From an uncultured Dehalococcoidia bacterium (lineage in GTDB: Bacteria; Chloroflexota; Dehalococcoidia; Lucifugimonadales; Lucifugimonadaceae), in contig OY282385.1 of assembly GCA_958295935.1 (NCBI GenBank), forward strand, positions 248,001 to 312,000: a stretch of DNA of 64,000 bases. Direction: 5' to 3'. The position numbers were made by a program, and so were the translations under genes. Shown piece after piece: positions 14,688 through 22,905 of the stretch. How positions within the stretch are numbered: the stretch's first letter is position 1; every line of letters begins with the position of its first letter. The notes under the pieces are model-generated. The model had not been told where the DNA came from. It saw only the letters and a list, made by a program, of their open reading frames with translations, and made no database searches.

Positions 14688-14808
14688 CGCATGCGCCTGG
14701 CGCGCTTCAGAGGCCGGGAACTCGCATTCCCCGCGCTTCTAGTACGCTTTAGCATTCCCGTTTTCACGACAGCACAGTGACGGCCCCGGCCCTACAGAGC
14801 GATTGCCC

Positions 14809-16002
14809 ATGCTGAGATACCTGACAGCCGGTGAATCCCACGGTCCCGGTCTAATCGTGATCGTCGAAGGTGTACCGGCAGGGCTGCCCGTAAGCGAAGA
14901 GTACGTCGCCCGCCAACTCGCCAGACGACAGCGCGGCTACGGCAGCGGCGGCCGCATGAAGATAGAGAAAGACCGCGCGGCCATTAGAGGCGGCGTGCGG
15001 CATGGCATGACGCTCGGATCCCCGGTTTCTATGTGGATCGAGAACCTCGACTTTGCAAACTGGACCGAGGCCATGTCCATAGCCCCGGCGCCGGAAGGGG
15101 CCGACCGCAAAGTACACACCCACGTGGTTCCCGGACACGCCGACTTTCCAGGCGCCCTCAAGTACGCCCATCACGACCTGCGAAACGTCCTTGAAAGGGC
15201 CAGCGCCAGGGAAACCACCGCCCGCGTGGCCGCGGCGGCGATAGCCCGCAGGCTATGCGAGGAAATCGGAATAGAGGTGCACGCACACGTAGCCTCCATT
15301 GGCGACGCGGTTGCGGAACGTCAGGGTCGCTCGCTGCCGGATTGGGACGCAGTAGATGAATCGGAAGTGCGCGCCGCGACCGACGAGGCCGATCATGCCT
15401 TCAAGCAGCGTATCGATCAGGCCAAGGCCAACCGAACCACCGTTGGAGGCGTGATGGAAGTGGTCGCAACCGGAGTGCCCGTCGGCTTGGGCAGTCACGT
15501 GCAGTGGGACCGCAAGCTCGATGGCCGACTGGCGCAGGCCATGATGAGCATCAACGCCGTCAAGGGAGTCGAAATAGGCTCCGGATTCGCCAACACCCGG
15601 CTTCCTGGCAGGGAAGTGCATGACGTGATCGTGCCGGACCCGGACGACCCGCGCCGCTTTCGGCATCTCTCCAACCACGCAGGCGGCATCGAGGGAGGAA
15701 TGACAAACGGAGAGCCGGTCATAGTGCGGGTCGCAGTGAAGCCCATAGCGACCATGACCAAACCACTCCCATCGGTCGATATAAACACCGGCGAAGTCGT
15801 GGAAGCCGCGTACCACCGGAGCGACGTCTGCCAGGTACCCAGGGCCTGCCCCATTGGAGAGGCTATGATGGCCCTTACCCTTGCAGATGCATTGCTGGAA
15901 AAATTCGGCGGAGACAGTATGGCCGAGATCGGCCGCAACTACCGGGCGTACATAGCCTCGCTCGCCAGATTCGGAAACCCGAACAACCCGGTCACACCAT
16001 AA
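14809..16002 (+). CDS. aroC: Chorismate synthase
   Basis: A 397-residue enzyme that makes chorismate from EPSP using reduced FMN. The ATG at 14809 gives the classic beginning MLRYLTAGESHGPGL; the TTG two codons earlier is less likely. Signature regions seen are RQRGYGSGGRMKIEKD, VVPGHADFPGALKY, LERASARETTARVA and GGIEGGMTNGEP. It lies 121 bp after aroE and only 36 bp before the inserted methyltransferase gene. Its product feeds both aromatic amino acids and, through MqnA encoded at 51193, menaquinone. Confidence 0.97.
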   Translation: MLRYLTAGESHGPGLIVIVEGVPAGLPVSEEYVARQLARRQRGYGSGGRMKIEKDRAAIRGGVRHGMTLGSPVSMWIENLDFANWTEAMSIAPAPEGADRKVHTHVVPGHADFPGALKYAHHDLRNVLERASARETTARVAAAAIARRLCEEIGIEVHAHVASIGDAVAERQGRSLPDWDAVDESEVRAATDEADHAFKQRIDQAKANRTTVGGVMEVVATGVPVGLGSHVQWDRKLDGRLAQAMMSINAVKGVEIGSGFANTRLPGREVHDVIVPDPDDPRRFRHLSNHAGGIEGGMTNGEPVIVRVAVKPIATMTKPLPSVDINTGEVVEAAYHRSDVCQVPRACPIGEAMMALTLADALLEKFGGDSMAEIGRNYRAYIASLARFGNPNNPVTP

Positions 16003-16038: not shown

Positions 16039-17445
16039 ATGACCACCGCGACCGCCAATTCGTCGAAACACGTAACGAAATTCCAGCAACTGCTGCGCGA
16101 GCTATTCCAGTTCGACTGCGCCGACCTCGATTTCGGCATCTACCGCATTATGAATTACAAGCGGGATGCGATTGAGAAGTTCATTACCGAGAAGCTGCCT
16201 GCCGACGTCTCCGAAGAGTTGGACCGCGGCATATTGCGCCAACAGGCCTGGGTCGCCGAAACGCTTGAGGAAACCCGCCAGAACGTCATAAACGGGCTCG
16301 GCTCAGGCGCTATCGATGCCGAGGGTGAATTGAACGATGGATACGTGGACACCCCGCTTGGCAGGGCATATCTGAATGCGAAGGCCGCTGCCAAATACAG
16401 CCGCAGCCGAGACGCCCTTGAAGCTTCCATATACAACCACCTGAGCGCATTTTTCAGCCGCTATTACCAGGACGGCGATTTTATCTCGACTAGGCGCTAC
16501 GGACGCAATCAAAAATACGCCATTCCATATAACGGCGAGGAGGTATATCTCCACTGGGCAAACAGCGATCAGTACTACGTAAAGACAGGCGAGCGCTTTC
16601 ACGACTACGACTGGAAAGCGCCCAACGGAGTGGTAACTCACTTCCTGATGCAGACCGCCAGAGTGGAACAGAACAACGTCAAGGGTGACAAGCGCTTCTT
16701 CCTCCCCCGCGTCGCAGAGACAAAATGGAACGAGAACGCACGCGCCGTCGTCATTCCCTTTGAGTACCGGCCCTTGAACGCGAAAGAGCAGTCCGCCTAT
16801 GGCAATCGGAACCAGCAGGACAAGATTATTGCCGAGGCGGTCCAGGAAATTCCGCAGCGGTTGGGGGCAAATGCGCCGGAAGCGGTAGCGGCCATGACCG
16901 GAGAACGACGCCTCGATAGCAACGGCCAATCCGTAAGCTATCTGGAACACCACCTACGGCAGTACACCAGGAAAAACACCTCCGACTTCTTCATCCACAA
17001 AGACCTGTCCGGCTTCCTCAACCGGGAGCTCGACTTCTATATCAAGAACGAGGCGCTGAATCTGGGCGACCTGATCATCGCAGGCGAGAACATGGCCGGT
17101 GGATGGTTTCAAATAGTGCAGCTGATCAAGATCATCGGCGCCCGCATCATCGAGTTTCTGGCCCAGATCGAAACCTTCCAGAAGATGCTATGGGAGAAAC
17201 GGAAGTTCATCGTTGAAACCCAATACTGCATCACCATCGGCAACATAAGCGCTGACTTCTACTCCGAAATTGCCGCCAACGACGCGCAGTGGGCCGAATG
17301 GCGAGAGCTGGGCATCGACTACCCCCCCCCCCCCCCCGAGATTCGTTCCTGCAAGAGCACCCAACCCTCCCCCTGGACACCAGACACTTCAGCCCCGATT
17401 TCACAGACCGCCTGCTCGCGTCCTTCGATGATCTCGACGGAATGA
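16039..17445 (+). CDS. Type III-like modification methyltransferase, N-terminal part (gene interrupted at a poly-C tract)
   Basis: The first 428 codons are the N-terminal part of a large type III-like Mod protein (FQQLLRELFQFDCADLDFGIYRIMNYKR is a start shared by long Mod homologues; split here as FQQLLRELFQF and DCADLDFGIYRIM). In-frame reading passes through a run of 16 C (17322-17337) and then gives about 36 unrelated residues before a TGA at 17443. Changing the tract to 14 or 17 C joins it to the next frame. On its own this part has no catalytic motif. It begins 36 bp after aroC behind an AAGAG ribosome-binding site. Confidence 0.85.
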   Translation: MTTATANSSKHVTKFQQLLRELFQFDCADLDFGIYRIMNYKRDAIEKFITEKLPADVSEELDRGILRQQAWVAETLEETRQNVINGLGSGAIDAEGELNDGYVDTPLGRAYLNAKAAAKYSRSRDALEASIYNHLSAFFSRYYQDGDFISTRRYGRNQKYAIPYNGEEVYLHWANSDQYYVKTGERFHDYDWKAPNGVVTHFLMQTARVEQNNVKGDKRFFLPRVAETKWNENARAVVIPFEYRPLNAKEQSAYGNRNQQDKIIAEAVQEIPQRLGANAPEAVAAMTGERRLDSNGQSVSYLEHHLRQYTRKNTSDFFIHKDLSGFLNRELDFYIKNEALNLGDLIIAGENMAGGWFQIVQLIKIIGARIIEFLAQIETFQKMLWEKRKFIVETQYCITIGNISADFYSEIAANDAQWAEWRELGIDYPPPPPEIRSCKSTQPSPWTPDTSAPISQTACSRPSMISTE

Positions 17446-19115
17446 CCGACGGCCTGCTGATACACAGCGAGAACTGGCAGGCCCTAAACCTCTTGCAGGA
17501 AAAGTACAACGGCAAAATCAAGTGCATATACATAGACCCACCGTATAATTCAAAGACGTCAGAAATTCTATACAAGAACAACTACAAGCACTCTTCATGG
17601 TTATCACTAATGGAAAATCGCATCTCCATTAGCCAACGTTTATCTACGGTAGACGGCTCATTCATTATTGCAATTGATGAGAATGAACAAATATTACTCG
17701 GTCAGTTGCTTATGAAATATTTCCCAAATCACGATAATGTCTGTGTGAGCATTATTCACAATAAGAAAGGAATACAGGGAGACCATTTCTCATATAACCA
17801 TGACTTTGCATATTTCTGCGTCCCACATACTCTAAAATCTACTCACGGAAAATCTATACATAAAGATGAATGGATTTACGTCAACCTAAGGAAATGGGGA
17901 CGTGAATCGGAACGCTCAACGGCCAAGAACTGCTTCTACCCGATTTTTGTGGAAAATAGTAAGATCGTAGAATTCGGCGATGTATGTGACGACACCTTCC
18001 ATCCAAGAGCAGCCAATGTGCGTGATGGTAGATTCAAAAATCGCGTGGCAGTGTACCCAGTAGACGCGAAAGGTGTAGAGCGCAAATGGAGATACGCACG
18101 TAACTCAGTTGAAAGCATACGCTATCTGCTTAAATTACACACTACTTCATCTGGTGAAATTCAAATACACAAAGCAAGTGATGAACAAATGTTCAAAACA
18201 GTGTGGGATGATTCAAGGTATATTGCGGGAGATTACGGAACGAAATGGCTTACGTATCTTGGATTGAAGGTAAAGGAAGATCTATATCCGAAGTCAGTAC
18301 ATACGGTGGAAGACTCTATCCATTTATCGTCAAATAGTGACTCACTAACTCTCGACTACTTCGCCGGCTCCGGCACCACCGGGCACGCCGTCATCAACCT
18401 GAATCGCGAGGACGAAGGACAGCGGAAGTTCATGCTGGTCGAGATGGGCGAATACTTCCACACGGTGCTGTTGCCGCGCATCAAGAAAGTCACCTTCACG
18501 CCAGAGTGGAAAGACGGCAAACCAAAGCGCCCGGCAACATCCTGGGAGGCGGAACGATCACCGCGCATCGTCAAGTACCTGCGCCTGGAATCCTACGAGG
18601 ACACACTGGACAGCATCGCTTTCGACCAAGAGGCCGGCCGCATGAAGCTGGAAGAGCGGATCGAGGGATACCTGCTCAAATACATGCTCAAGTGGGAAAC
18701 CAAGGAAAGCGAGACCCTGCTCAACGCGGCCAAACTGACCCGGCCCTTCGACTACAAGCTGAGGTCTCAAGCAAACGGCGAGACCCGGGAACAGATCGCG
18801 GACGTTGCCGAAACCTTCAACTACCTGCTGGGGCTGAACGTTCGCACCCGGCGAGTGTACGACGACAGCGGACGCCGCTACCTGGTCTACACAGGCGAAA
18901 CCCGCGAGGCCCCCGGCCGCGTGGCGGCAGTCATATGGCGGAACACCGAGGGATGGACCGAGGACGACTTCAGGCGCGACCGCCGGTTCGTCGCCGAGCG
19001 GAAACTTGCCGATGGAGCGGACGAAGTGTACGTAAACGGCGATTCCTGCATCCTCGGAGCCAAAGCCGTCGAACCGATATTCAAGGCGAGGATGTTCGAC
19101 GCGGCACAGGCCTGA
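17289..19115 (+). CDS. Type III-like modification methyltransferase, catalytic part (beta-class N6-adenine MTase)
   Basis: This frame holds the catalytic domain. Motif IV DPPYN lies at residues 83-87 and motif I FAGSG at 358-362, with IV before I and the target-recognition part between, which is the beta-class order of type III Mod proteins. The frame runs back across the poly-C tract to GTG 17289 or ATG 17298, neither with a clear ribosome-binding site, so a separate catalytic half is possible but less likely than a single Mod protein of about 1,020 residues when the tract is 14 or 17 C. The middle is AT-rich. Its partner nuclease starts 23 bp later. Confidence 0.85.
   Translation: MGRMARAGHRLPPPPPRDSFLQEHPTLPLDTRHFSPDFTDRLLASFDDLDGMTDGLLIHSENWQALNLLQEKYNGKIKCIYIDPPYNSKTSEILYKNNYKHSSWLSLMENRISISQRLSTVDGSFIIAIDENEQILLGQLLMKYFPNHDNVCVSIIHNKKGIQGDHFSYNHDFAYFCVPHTLKSTHGKSIHKDEWIYVNLRKWGRESERSTAKNCFYPIFVENSKIVEFGDVCDDTFHPRAANVRDGRFKNRVAVYPVDAKGVERKWRYARNSVESIRYLLKLHTTSSGEIQIHKASDEQMFKTVWDDSRYIAGDYGTKWLTYLGLKVKEDLYPKSVHTVEDSIHLSSNSDSLTLDYFAGSGTTGHAVINLNREDEGQRKFMLVEMGEYFHTVLLPRIKKVTFTPEWKDGKPKRPATSWEAERSPRIVKYLRLESYEDTLDSIAFDQEAGRMKLEERIEGYLLKYMLKWETKESETLLNAAKLTRPFDYKLRSQANGETREQIADVAETFNYLLGLNVRTRRVYDDSGRRYLVYTGETREAPGRVAAVIWRNTEGWTEDDFRRDRRFVAERKLADGADEVYVNGDSCILGAKAVEPIFKARMFDAAQA
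17322..17337 (+). repeat. Homopolymeric C16 tract (candidate phase-variation switch) in mod
   Basis: Sixteen consecutive C residues encode a Pro run that links the N-terminal and catalytic parts of the methyltransferase. With 16 C the upstream frame misses the downstream frame. Slipped-strand changes to 14 or 17 C would restore the full gene. Homopolymer tracts in mod genes are a known on/off switch in other bacteria; here it could also hide an assembly length error. Confidence 0.85.
17550..18350 (+). other. AT-rich target-recognition cassette inside mod
   Basis: Base composition falls sharply just after the DPPYN codons (17535-17549) and recovers just before the LDYFAGSG codons (18351 on). 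The cassette carries many A/T-ending codons, unlike the GC-ending codons on both sides. It encodes the region between motifs IV and I, where beta-class Mod proteins keep the DNA target-recognition domain. The pattern suggests replacement by recombination from a lower-GC donor. Confidence 0.75.
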
Positions 19116-19138: not shown

Positions 19139-22100
19139 ATGCCGACCCGCGCCCGTACCAGACCAAAATCCCGTGAGAACACCGCCGGAGTATCCGCCCG
19201 GTTGGAAGAACGTCTGCTTCTGTTGGACTGGCTGCACCAGCGGCTGGGTTATACCGATACCGGGCCGCTGCTGAAGGACATGAAGCTTGCAGACGAGGGA
19301 TTCGACCCGGACGGCCACAGCTACGTCTATAACCGGTTGGCGTCGCGGGAAGGCCGGCTGCAGGGGATTACGCTGGACGACCTACAACGCTACGACCACA
19401 ACATCCGAGCGCATCTGGCAGCTATGAACGCGGGGCGCAGGCAGCCCATCACGCTTCGCTACTTCCAGTACCTGGCAGCGCTGTACGCCGAAATCTTTCT
19501 CGACTGGTACTTCAACCACTCAAAACTGTTGCTGGAGTCACTGAACCGATTTGTTTCCCGGCGCAACGCCAGGCGGCGCACAGGCGAACACGTCGAGACG
19601 AACTTCAACGACTACGATCTGAAGAAACTCGCCTTCTGGATGGCCACCGGCAGCGGCAAGACGCTGCTGATGCACCTGAATTACCGCCAGTTCCTCCACT
19701 ACAACCCCAAGGCGCTGGACAACATACTGCTGATCACTCCCAACGAAGGGCTGAGCGAGCAGCACCTCGCAGAATTGCAGGCGTCGAACATTCCGGCTGA
19801 CCGGTTCGACGTGGCCGAAAGCGGACTGCTGGCCGTCAGCGGAAACCGCGTCAAGGTTACTGAGATAACCAAACTGGTGGAGCAAAAGCGGGGCGGAGGC
19901 GTAAGGGTGCCGGTTGAGGCGTTCGAGGGCAACAACCTGATCTTCGTGGATGAGGGGCACAAAGGGTCGGGAGGCGAGGCGTGGCGGAGGATGCGAGACA
20001 TGCTGGGTGAGACGGGTTTCACTTTTGAGTACAGCGCCACATTTGGGCAGGCTTTGAGCGCAGCCGGCAACGAGGATCTGGCCGCGGAGTACGGCAAGGC
20101 CATCGCATTCGACTATTCATATCGCTTCTTCTACGACGAGGGATACGGCAAGGACTTCCACATACTCAATCTTCAACAGGAGACCACTCAGGACCAGACG
20201 GACAGGCTGCTGTTGGCCAACCTGCTTTCCTTCTACGAGCAGCAAATGGTGTTCGAGCAGCAGCGCGACGCACTTCGGCGCTACAACCTGGACCAGCCGC
20301 TTTGGGTGTTCGTAGGCAGCAAAGTCAACGCCGTACATAGGGAACGAGGGCGATCCAGGAGCGACGTTCTGACCGTTGTCCGGTTCCTGCACCGATTGCT
20401 GAGCGACGTCGGCTGGGCTACGACAGCCATAAGCCAGTTGCTGAAAGGCCAATCGGAGTTGCGCGACCAGTACGGCGAGGATGTCTTCAATGACAAATTC
20501 GACTACCTGCGCCAGCGCATGGGGAAGGCGGAGAACGTCTACCGGGGCATATTGGAGAAGACGCTGCACGCGCCCGCCGGGGGCGGGCTGCACATATCCG
20601 ACATACGCGGAAGCCGAGGCGAGTTGGGCCTCAAGGTGGGCGGAGCCGACGATTACTTCGGCCTGATCTACATCGGGGACACGGCAGCATTCAAGAATCT
20701 GGTCAAGGATGACAATCCCGACGTCGCGGTTGAGGACGATGCCGTCTCAGGCCCCCTGTTTAGCGGGGTCAACCAGCCGGGGAGCTCCATAGAAATACTG
20801 ATAGGCGCCCGAAAATTCATCGAAGGCTGGAACTCCTGGCGCGTGTCCAACATCGGGCTGCTCAACATCGGCAGAAGCGAGGGATCCCAGATAATCCAGC
20901 TATTCGGGCGGGGTGTGCGACTGAGAGGGCTGAACTTCACGCTGAAGCGCAGTTCAGCGCTGGAAGGCCGCCATCCCGATCACCTCGATCTGCTGGAAAC
21001 CCTCAACATCTTCGCCGTGCGAGCCAACTACATGGCACAATTCCGGGATTACCTTGAACGCGAAGGCGTGGCAACGGACAGGATGTTGGAACTGCCGCTG
21101 CTCATCCAACCCAACCGCGATTTCCTGGGCCAGGGGCTGCTCATTCCCCGACTCGACGAAAAGCGTAACTTCAAAGCTGAAGCAGAGGCCCTGCTGGAAT
21201 CTGGTACCCAGGTCCACAAGATATTTGTAGATATGACCGCCAGGGTGCAGTCAGTGGATATCGGACGATCCGGCATTGAACAGGTCAGCGCCAGTTCAGG
21301 GAGCGAAAGGCGTATCCCCTCCGAAAGCCTCGATCTGGTGGACTGGGACAAGGTATATCTGGCATTGATCGAGCACAAGGAGCAAAAGGGCCTCGAGAAT
21401 CTGGCCCTAAGCAAGAAGGCGCTGAGGAGCATCCTGGAAGCCGACCCGCCGGTGTACCGGCTGAAGGCCGATGATGCCCTCGTAAATCCCACAGGCTTCG
21501 CTGAATGGGAGCGGCTGCAAGAAGGGGTGGTCAACATACTGCGGAAGTACGCCGACGCCTTCTACCGGAGCAGACGGGAGCGATGGGAGTCGCAGCGCTT
21601 GGTCTACAAGACGTTCGACGATAGAGACTCCAACCTGCGGTTCAACGTCTCCGAAGAGAAATACTCCGGCAGATACATAGTCAGCGTTCCGAGGAAGAAG
21701 ACGGCGTTGATAGCGGAGATCGAGCAACTCATCGCCGATTGCGACAAACTTTACAACGGAGAGCAGGGCAAGTTGCCCCGTATTCACTTCGACCGCCACG
21801 TATACCAACCACTCCTGCTGGAAGGCGAAGGCATAGCTAAGATATCCCCGCCGGGGTTGACCGACAGCGAGCGGAATTTCATCGACGGTCTGAAAACGTA
21901 TTGGGCTAAGGAGCAGGGCAGGGCGCCGGACGGCCCGGAAGTGTTCCTCTTGCGTAACCAGAGCCGTGGCATGGGCGTAGGATTCTTCGAAAACAGAGGC
22001 TTCTACCCCGATTTCATCCTCTGGATCAAGACAGGCGACAATCAGCGCATCGTATTTGTCGAACCGCATGGGATGATCCACTCTAACGCGTACGCTTACG

Positions 22101-22357
22101 ACCACAAAGCGCGGCTCCATGAAAAATTGCCCGAACTGGCAGAGAAGATATCCCACAGCTCCGGTCCATCGAACGTGAGCTTGGATTCCTTCATCGTCTC
22201 GGCAACACCTTACGAGGAACTGCACAAACGATACGATGACGGGAAGTGGAGCCGAGAGCAGTTCGCAGACAAGCACGTCCTCTTTCCGGAGCGTAACGAC
22301 GGGTACGATTACGTAGCGGAGATTTTCAGGGAAACCGAGAACCCTGCAGCCCTATGA
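19139..22357 (+). CDS. Type III restriction endonuclease subunit (DEAD/DEAH helicase-nuclease)
   Basis: A 1072-residue Res protein. The N-terminal helicase has Walker A ATGSGKT (169-175) and Walker B DEGH (271-274), followed by the SF2 second domain with an R-rich motif VI (QLFGRGVRLRG). The C-terminal nuclease-like region has G-F-Y-P-D-F (Asp958) and V-E-P-H (Glu975), a PD-(D/E)xK-type layout. Res cuts DNA when Mod meets unmodified sites and the enzyme translocates. It starts 23 bp after mod and its last codon overlaps the aroK start (ATGA), so it is translationally coupled to the aro genes. Confidence 0.9.
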   Translation: MPTRARTRPKSRENTAGVSARLEERLLLLDWLHQRLGYTDTGPLLKDMKLADEGFDPDGHSYVYNRLASREGRLQGITLDDLQRYDHNIRAHLAAMNAGRRQPITLRYFQYLAALYAEIFLDWYFNHSKLLLESLNRFVSRRNARRRTGEHVETNFNDYDLKKLAFWMATGSGKTLLMHLNYRQFLHYNPKALDNILLITPNEGLSEQHLAELQASNIPADRFDVAESGLLAVSGNRVKVTEITKLVEQKRGGGVRVPVEAFEGNNLIFVDEGHKGSGGEAWRRMRDMLGETGFTFEYSATFGQALSAAGNEDLAAEYGKAIAFDYSYRFFYDEGYGKDFHILNLQQETTQDQTDRLLLANLLSFYEQQMVFEQQRDALRRYNLDQPLWVFVGSKVNAVHRERGRSRSDVLTVVRFLHRLLSDVGWATTAISQLLKGQSELRDQYGEDVFNDKFDYLRQRMGKAENVYRGILEKTLHAPAGGGLHISDIRGSRGELGLKVGGADDYFGLIYIGDTAAFKNLVKDDNPDVAVEDDAVSGPLFSGVNQPGSSIEILIGARKFIEGWNSWRVSNIGLLNIGRSEGSQIIQLFGRGVRLRGLNFTLKRSSALEGRHPDHLDLLETLNIFAVRANYMAQFRDYLEREGVATDRMLELPLLIQPNRDFLGQGLLIPRLDEKRNFKAEAEALLESGTQVHKIFVDMTARVQSVDIGRSGIEQVSASSGSERRIPSESLDLVDWDKVYLALIEHKEQKGLENLALSKKALRSILEADPPVYRLKADDALVNPTGFAEWERLQEGVVNILRKYADAFYRSRRERWESQRLVYKTFDDRDSNLRFNVSEEKYSGRYIVSVPRKKTALIAEIEQLIADCDKLYNGEQGKLPRIHFDRHVYQPLLLEGEGIAKISPPGLTDSERNFIDGLKTYWAKEQGRAPDGPEVFLLRNQSRGMGVGFFENRGFYPDFILWIKTGDNQRIVFVEPHGMIHSNAYAYDHKARLHEKLPELAEKISHSSGPSNVSLDSFIVSATPYEELHKRYDDGKWSREQFADKHVLFPERNDGYDYVAEIFRETENPAAL

Positions 22358-22905
22358 CTACCGCAAAGAACATCTACCTGATTGGCTTTTCCGGCACCGG
22401 CAAGACCGTCTCCGGCAATCTGGCGGCCATGGAACTCGGCTGGGCTTTCGTAGACACCGACGAACTGATCGAGCAACGGGCCGGCAAGCGAATTCCGGAA
22501 ATGTTTGCCGAGGACGGTGAAAAGAGGTTCAGAGAGATCGAGAACGGAGTGCTGCTCGATGTTTCCTCAGGCGAACGCCAGGTTGTATCCACCGGAGGAG
22601 GCGCGCCGGTAAACGTGTCGAACCGCCAACTGATGCGAAGAACCGGGATGATAGTGCGGCTCACGGCAAGCCCAGAGGTGATCCACCAAAGACTCTCAAA
22701 GGGAAGCAAGCGCAACAGGCCTCTGAGGCCCTTGTTGGTCAGCAACACCCCGATCGACAGGATCAGAAAACTCCTCTCCCAGCGAGAGTCGGCATATTCA
22801 CACGCCGACGTTACTATAACCACCGATGGCAGAGAGCACGCCAACGTGGCGCTGGACATAGCCCATGCGTGGCACAGGTTCGCACAGAAGCACGGCTATG
22901 AATGA
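22354..22905 (+). CDS. aroK: Shikimate kinase
   Basis: A 183-residue kinase that phosphorylates shikimate at the 3-hydroxyl. P-loop GFSGTGKT lies at residues 11-18, followed by VDTDELIEQ (substrate Asp), FREIENGVL, and the GGGAPV loop; the lid region RPLRPLL follows. The ATG overlaps the res stop by four bases and the gene overlaps aroB by eight, so the three are likely translated in a chain. aroK-aroB is a common pair; the unusual part is that a restriction gene precedes it. Confidence 0.95.
   Translation: MTTAKNIYLIGFSGTGKTVSGNLAAMELGWAFVDTDELIEQRAGKRIPEMFAEDGEKRFREIENGVLLDVSSGERQVVSTGGGAPVNVSNRQLMRRTGMIVRLTASPEVIHQRLSKGSKRNRPLRPLLVSNTPIDRIRKLLSQRESAYSHADVTITTDGREHANVALDIAHAWHRFAQKHGYE

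Follow-up and report, generated by a model that had tools for sequence, protein, structure and literature searches.

A homopolymeric C tract as a candidate phase-variable switch in a type III mod gene of an uncultured Chloroflexota bacterium

The window analyzed here, a 64-kb stretch of contig OY282385.1 from an uncultured Dehalococcoidia bacterium, carries adjacent genes for the methyltransferase (mod) and the restriction subunit (res) of a type III restriction-modification system. The mod gene is divided by a run of 16 cytosines (C16) into an N-terminal extension and a catalytic part that lie in different reading frames. We consider it likely that mod-res is a type III cassette in which mod is switched by gain and loss of C residues in this homopolymer through slipped-strand mispairing, a known behavior of such tracts. 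Repeat-driven gene switching probably operates in this group of Chloroflexota too. To our knowledge, repeat-driven switching of methylases has been studied almost only in animal-adapted bacteria. Phase-variable type III mod genes are nonetheless already known, environmental species included, and the candidate described here, from a SAR202-like member of the Chloroflexota, would be an added member of that set.

The C16 tract and the reading frames of mod

The features of the cassette in the window are as follows.

16039..17321, + strand: N-terminal extension of a long type III Mod, 428 codons from the ATG at 16039 to the TAC at the tract; matched by PDLC03646 and by plasmid Mods
17322..17337, + strand: C16 homopolymer tract, polyproline codons if in frame; flanks TA-C16-GA match the long-tract consensus
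17338..19115, + strand: catalytic and C-terminal part of Mod, in the other frame; N6_N4_Mtase (PF01555), E 4.7e-22; PDLC03646, E 1e-94
17450..18350, + strand: A+T-rich stretch over the target-recognition region, G+C 36-44% vs 53-63% on either side
17535..17549, + strand: motif IV, DPPYN, intact in the sequence
18360..18380, + strand: motif I, FAGSGTT, binding of S-adenosylmethionine (SAM), intact in the sequence
19139..22357, + strand: res, type III restriction subunit, 1072 amino acids, open over its full length; ResIII, E 1.5e-11; PDLC03654 REase_III, E 1.5e-156

An earlier note on this DNA had reported 16 C at 17322-17337 between two parts of one methyltransferase, and the position proved exact. 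The tract is the sole base run longer than 7 in the window. Seven overlapping matches to C10 were observed, against a mean of 0.35 in shuffled windows, and 0 of 100 shuffles reached 7. The upstream frame of mod begins with the ATG at 16039 and continues through the tract to the TGA at 17443-17445, the third frame after the tract stops at 17429-17431, and the catalytic frame leaves the tract at codon 17340 and stays open until the TGA at 19113-19115. Codon statistics indicate that both sides of the tract are coding on the + strand, in differing frames. The repeat unit is not a multiple of three, and the number of C residues sets the frame. Frame arithmetic agrees with the earlier claim that 14 or 17 C join the two frames (11 and 20 do so as well) and that 16 C is out of frame.

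The Mod protein and its homologs

The gene is identified as a type III restriction-modification Mod by its motifs, by the adjoining Res, which carries a superfamily 2 (SF2) helicase (ResIII), and by profile and fold matches; adenine methylation is predicted for its product. Motif IV precedes motif I, with the target-recognition region between them, as in N6 methyltransferases of the beta class. Both halves match a single PADLOC profile, PDLC03646 (type III methyltransferase, 1057 positions), the N half at positions 290-423 and the C half at 441-1025, which bears out the view that these are two parts of one enzyme. Plasmid-encoded type III Mods also align with both halves, the N half being 34-42% identical over 95-100% of its length; searches of the N half against Pfam, NCBIfam and PDB sequences returned no match. 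Among PDB sequences, the C half matches EcoP15I Mod, Mbo45V Mod and 6k0w (entries 6k0w, 7dsu and 4zcf). A structural model of the homolog L122 (labels with L and G are ours, for loci and genomes), built from 30 sequences with a mean predicted local distance difference test score (pLDDT) of 80, has EcoP15I Mod as its best fold match, with 4zcf, 6k0w and 7dsu matched. The linker equivalent to the tract is a coil in this model, at approximately residues 421-430, between two helices. This placement in an inter-domain loop suggests that 4, 5 or 6 prolines, as encoded by the in-frame lengths, should be tolerated. Apart from the tract, mod is intact, with about 1025 codons free of any further stop or frameshift and all motifs present.

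A scan of GTDB genomes gave 80 loci, in 65 of which (two of them plasmid records) both halves were found. One frame runs through the junction in 62 of the 65, with a linker of 27-168 nucleotides and no G/C run longer than 6, and 45 homologs are full-length single open reading frames (ORFs) of 960-1159 amino acids. The linker is the least conserved piece of Mod and very variable in length, so a repeat would do least harm there. Of the three exceptions, Necropsobacter massiliensis (L147) carries G8 within this linker, and its frame is broken; a Poribacteria locus (L152) has G9 in the N-terminal part, a less certain case that adjoins an N gap; and L159 is not fully covered. Elsewhere, Rodentibacter rarus (L151) carries 16 copies of ACAGC close to the start of a long mod, and a Poribacteria mod has C11 at the matching place, just before the catalytic core.

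Tracts at this site were also found in relatives. Genome G046 has two tandem type III mods with G12 and G11, both of which would be in frame at G10 or G13, and genome G050 has one mod with C13. All three begin with MPTLDxKGK, followed by the tract, DDNLIIHGDNLHALKALLPRYAGRV and DPPYN, and all three are out of frame. The earlier note had called the location between N-terminal extension and catalytic domain unusual; that description does not hold, since tracts occupy the matching inter-domain place in other type III mods (G046, G050, Poribacteria and, from the Pasteurellaceae, Necropsobacter). The site is a recurrent one. Since the run consists of G in some of these mods and of C in others, the tracts seem to have arisen there independently. 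The tandem mods of G046 (L073:1954-5343) share the start and tract and differ in their downstream parts; they look like a switchable pair.

Proposed switching of mod

Replication slippage would change the number of C residues in the tract. With 14, 17 or 20 C, one protein would comprise both the N-terminal extension and the catalytic part, Mod would be made, and methylation and, together with Res, restriction would be on. Any other length, the assembled 16 among them, would bring translation to an end 30-36 codons past the tract, and no full-length Mod would result. A type III Res needs Mod to find DNA, and without Mod it would be harmless. We thus infer a path from slippage to ON/OFF expression and methylation; regulation of genes by that methylation (a phasevarion) is speculative.

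Other tracts in the genome and in its relatives

The genome, a single 2.75-Mb contig, has 13 C/G tracts of at least 10 and no A9 runs. Several of these tracts split methylases and glycosyltransferases; the mod tract is not an isolated accident. Four of them, including that of the window mod, divide genes out of frame. The remaining tracts are as follows.

L056:6034-6046 (G000:C1:2539433-2539445): second methylase, G13 forming its FxGxG SAM-binding motif; in frame at 8, 11 or 14; split out of frame
L055:6061-6071: third methylase, C11 at its end
L051 and L057: PMT glycosyltransferases, each split out of frame by its tract
L047 and L052: tracts in the leaders of GSDH-cytochrome c lipoproteins
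L046 and L053: tracts upstream of giant fn3 and Ig-like proteins
L048, L049, L050 and L054: other or intergenic tracts

Genes for methylases, glycosylation and giant surface proteins are those in which phase variation is typically found. At L055, one alternative frame would terminate two codons ahead of the ATG of a PD-(D/E)XK nuclease (PDDEXK_11), a possible coupling of restriction set by the tract. The giant fn3 protein is 67% identical in two families of the order and has a C24 or G20 tract at its 5' end in both (L046:5924-5947 and L069:3088-3107). The 16S gene contains exact targets of the probes GNSB-941, CFX1223 and SAR202-312R; a SAR202-like member of the Chloroflexota is therefore likely, in agreement with the phylum guessed in the earlier note.

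Tracts of at least 12 occur in 19 of 60 relatives. The clustered poly-G/C runs of the draft metagenome-assembled genomes G055, G111, G115 and G123, some of them adjoining N stretches or contig ends, resemble typical poly-G artefacts of assembly; tract counts from such drafts were rejected and the statistics restricted to near-complete genomes. Of 60 tracts of at least 12 in five near-complete genomes, 4 lie within 300 bp of a PF01555 domain, where 0.37 are expected (P 5e-4); 300 bp was one of four distances tried, and the others gave P values from 0.18 (0 bp) to 3e-5 (700 bp). The leading Pfam families among 81 tract-associated proteins are N6_N4_Mtase (5), PMT (4), GSDH (3) and He_PIG (3), and none of the four is among the 25 most frequent families of 81 control proteins from the same loci. 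Both this genome and nearly all relatives, tract-bearing or not, have MutS1, so its loss does not explain the tracts, and loss of mismatch repair was ruled out as their cause. Two loci in genomes of different families, L064 (G046) and L097 (G058), have identical 45-bp flanks of a G16 tract, suggestive of recent transfer or a mobile element.

Evidence against switching and alternative explanations

Several observations weigh against a switch. All eight of the in-gene tracts inspected closely (the window, L056, L051, L057, L073 twice, L078 and L186) are out of frame, where chance would put two thirds there; eight out of eight has a probability of about 0.04, and counting bias or gene decay may play a part. 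Because long-read assemblies are prone to miscount homopolymers, the assembled 16 may be 14 or 17. Moreover, mod has only distant matches in the 60 relatives, all from other genera, and is not traceable over time. The comparison with related genomes that the earlier note had proposed yielded tracts at the matching place in other mods and no close counterpart of this one.

A counting error, with a true tract of 14 or 17 C, a mod that is normally on and a frameshift that is a sequencing artefact, strikes us as unlikely. Long reads have most difficulty with long C runs, and random miscounts would tend to leave all the closely inspected in-gene tracts out of frame, as they are. A miscount does not explain, however, why a run of C14-17 exists at all where the linkers of nearly all homologs have no long run, nor why tracts occur in unrelated genes and genomes. 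The paralogous mods of G046, moreover, differ in tract length (12 and 11) yet have the same predicted in-frame lengths. Even if 16 were a miscount, the tract would still be a slippery site.

Still less probable, in our judgment, is that a recently acquired restriction-modification cassette is being lost and that the tract is a neutral product of slippage. The cassette does appear to be acquired, in an operon otherwise uninterrupted in relatives (see below), and mod is at present out of frame. However, neither the roughly 1025 codons of mod nor the 1072 of res contain another stop or frameshift, and all motifs are intact; the distribution of tracts is also not random, with repeated occurrence in mods, PMT enzymes and surface proteins. 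A constant mixture in place of a heritable switch, in which the C16 gene gives rise to some full-length Mod or to a separate core through RNA polymerase slippage, ribosomal frameshifting or reinitiation at the ATG at 17442, is very improbable. Reinitiation producing a separate catalytic core is possible, as in the C16 state the stop of the upstream frame overlaps an ATG that is in frame with the catalytic part (ATGA, 17442-17445, + strand), and the stop of the other off frame lies only about 11 bases upstream of this ATG. However, no clear ribosome-binding site precedes it, the core would miss the N-terminal extension kept fused in homologs, and tract length and noncoding tracts would go unexplained.

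Slippage-driven switching of mod, the candidate put forward in the earlier note, is favored by the single profile that spans both halves, the one-frame junction in 62 of 65 homologs, the intact motifs, the similar tracts elsewhere in the genome and those at the matching place in other mods.

Sequences flanking the tracts

Tracts of at least 10 have the flanks C-Gn-T(A/G) (L046-L106 in G000, G046, G050, G058 and G041), and the window tract, TA-C16-GA, obeys this rule. In the five near-complete genomes the base before such G tracts is C in 54 of 66, compared to 41-45% for shorter runs (P 3e-10, an approximate value, because some tract sites are related by descent, for a rule noticed after the fact). 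The base after them is T in 55%, compared to about 25% for shorter runs. In G078, from another class, C precedes the tract in 7 of 10 cases.

Directly 5' of many G tracts lies a 12-bp box, GAACNNNNGTNY, with 21 matches vs 3 for the reversed pattern; the flank rule holds with and without it. The box was seen at L047, L051, L052, L062, L063, L073, L078, L088, L092, L102, L105 and L201-L207. It is nearly uniform within a genome and is common to unrelated genes, which include type III mods and the genes of GT39-like membrane enzymes and GSDH lipoproteins. The sequence GAACNNNNGTTC resembles a Gram-positive LexA site. We do not claim a GAAC box at the window tract, where the resemblance is weak and one base short and the bases encode a conserved DSF. 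It is conceivable, although we hold it doubtful, that hypermutable G/C tracts form a genome-wide set in SAR202-type Chloroflexota, generated or maintained by a single context-specific process and marked by C-Gn-T(A/G) flanks in any gene and on either strand; within each genome, GAACNNNNGTNY and its G tract would have spread to the starts of type III mods and of genes for membrane glycosyltransferases and lipoproteins, and the window C16 would be a member without the box.

Target-recognition region and comparison with known systems

The low G+C content of the target-recognition region and a mosaic of identities may reflect exchange of this region, as seen across homologs rather than alleles of this mod. 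L122 and L127 are 51-64% identical to it over the N half, the part of the core that precedes the recognition region, and the C terminus, with no detectable similarity in the recognition region, whereas L120 is 70% identical in the recognition region. A mosaic pattern is known for mod alleles (PMC8125046), and the identities of L122, L127 and L120 show such a pattern.

Known phase-variable type III mods, such as modS of Streptococcus suis, resemble the window gene in having a simple repeat within the ORF that sets the frame and an adjacent res; they also have conserved ends around an exchangeable target-recognition region, as the window gene may have too. The window Mod differs from them in its N-terminal extension of about 430 residues, its C homopolymer and its origin in an uncultured SAR202-like member of the Chloroflexota, and its switching is a prediction. 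Such repeats are carried by 17.4% of the type III mod genes in REBASE, environmental species included (PMC7394358). The MmyCI mod of Mycoplasma mycoides subsp. capri, which has no activity with AG12 and is in frame and active with AG10 (PMC3498834), is likewise a type III mod closed by a frame-shifting repeat; it differs in its dinucleotide repeat, its mycoplasma host and the assay of both ON and OFF clones. The long Mods of Rodentibacter rarus (L151), Necropsobacter massiliensis (L147) and Poribacteria (L152) belong to the same long-Mod family, in other phyla and with another repeat or position. Campylobacter and Helicobacter show homopolymer phase variation of many genes (PMC6321876, PMC2823697) and, like the genome studied here, have many repeat tracts in surface and methylase genes of one genome. 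They are host-adapted Campylobacterota, however, and the present genome adds the C-Gn-T flank rule and the GAACNNNNGT box; switching in it is predicted. Our search of the open literature on phase variation in Chloroflexota, SAR202 or Poribacteria found nothing relevant, which is not proof of absence.

If switching occurs, heterogeneity of methylation and surface glycans would be expected within natural Chloroflexota populations and would affect phage resistance as well as the reading of single-genome assemblies. Tract length and methylation of each molecule can both be read from one long-read metagenome data set.

The cassette in the aro cluster

The genes flanking mod-res are as follows.

14803..16002, + strand: aroC, left neighbor; mod begins 37 bases after its stop
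22354..22905, + strand: aroK, right neighbor; its ATG overlaps the res stop

In 11 relatives of the family, aroC is directly followed by aroK and aroB; in the window, mod-res stands between aroC and aroK. This gene order indicates that mod-res is an acquired cassette inserted in an aroE-aroC-aroK-aroB cluster. A promoter search inside the cassette gave two weak matches, below the shuffled count, and an Rfam scan of the window gave nothing at the gathering threshold. Polarity from an off-frame mod could lower the expression of aroK and aroB.
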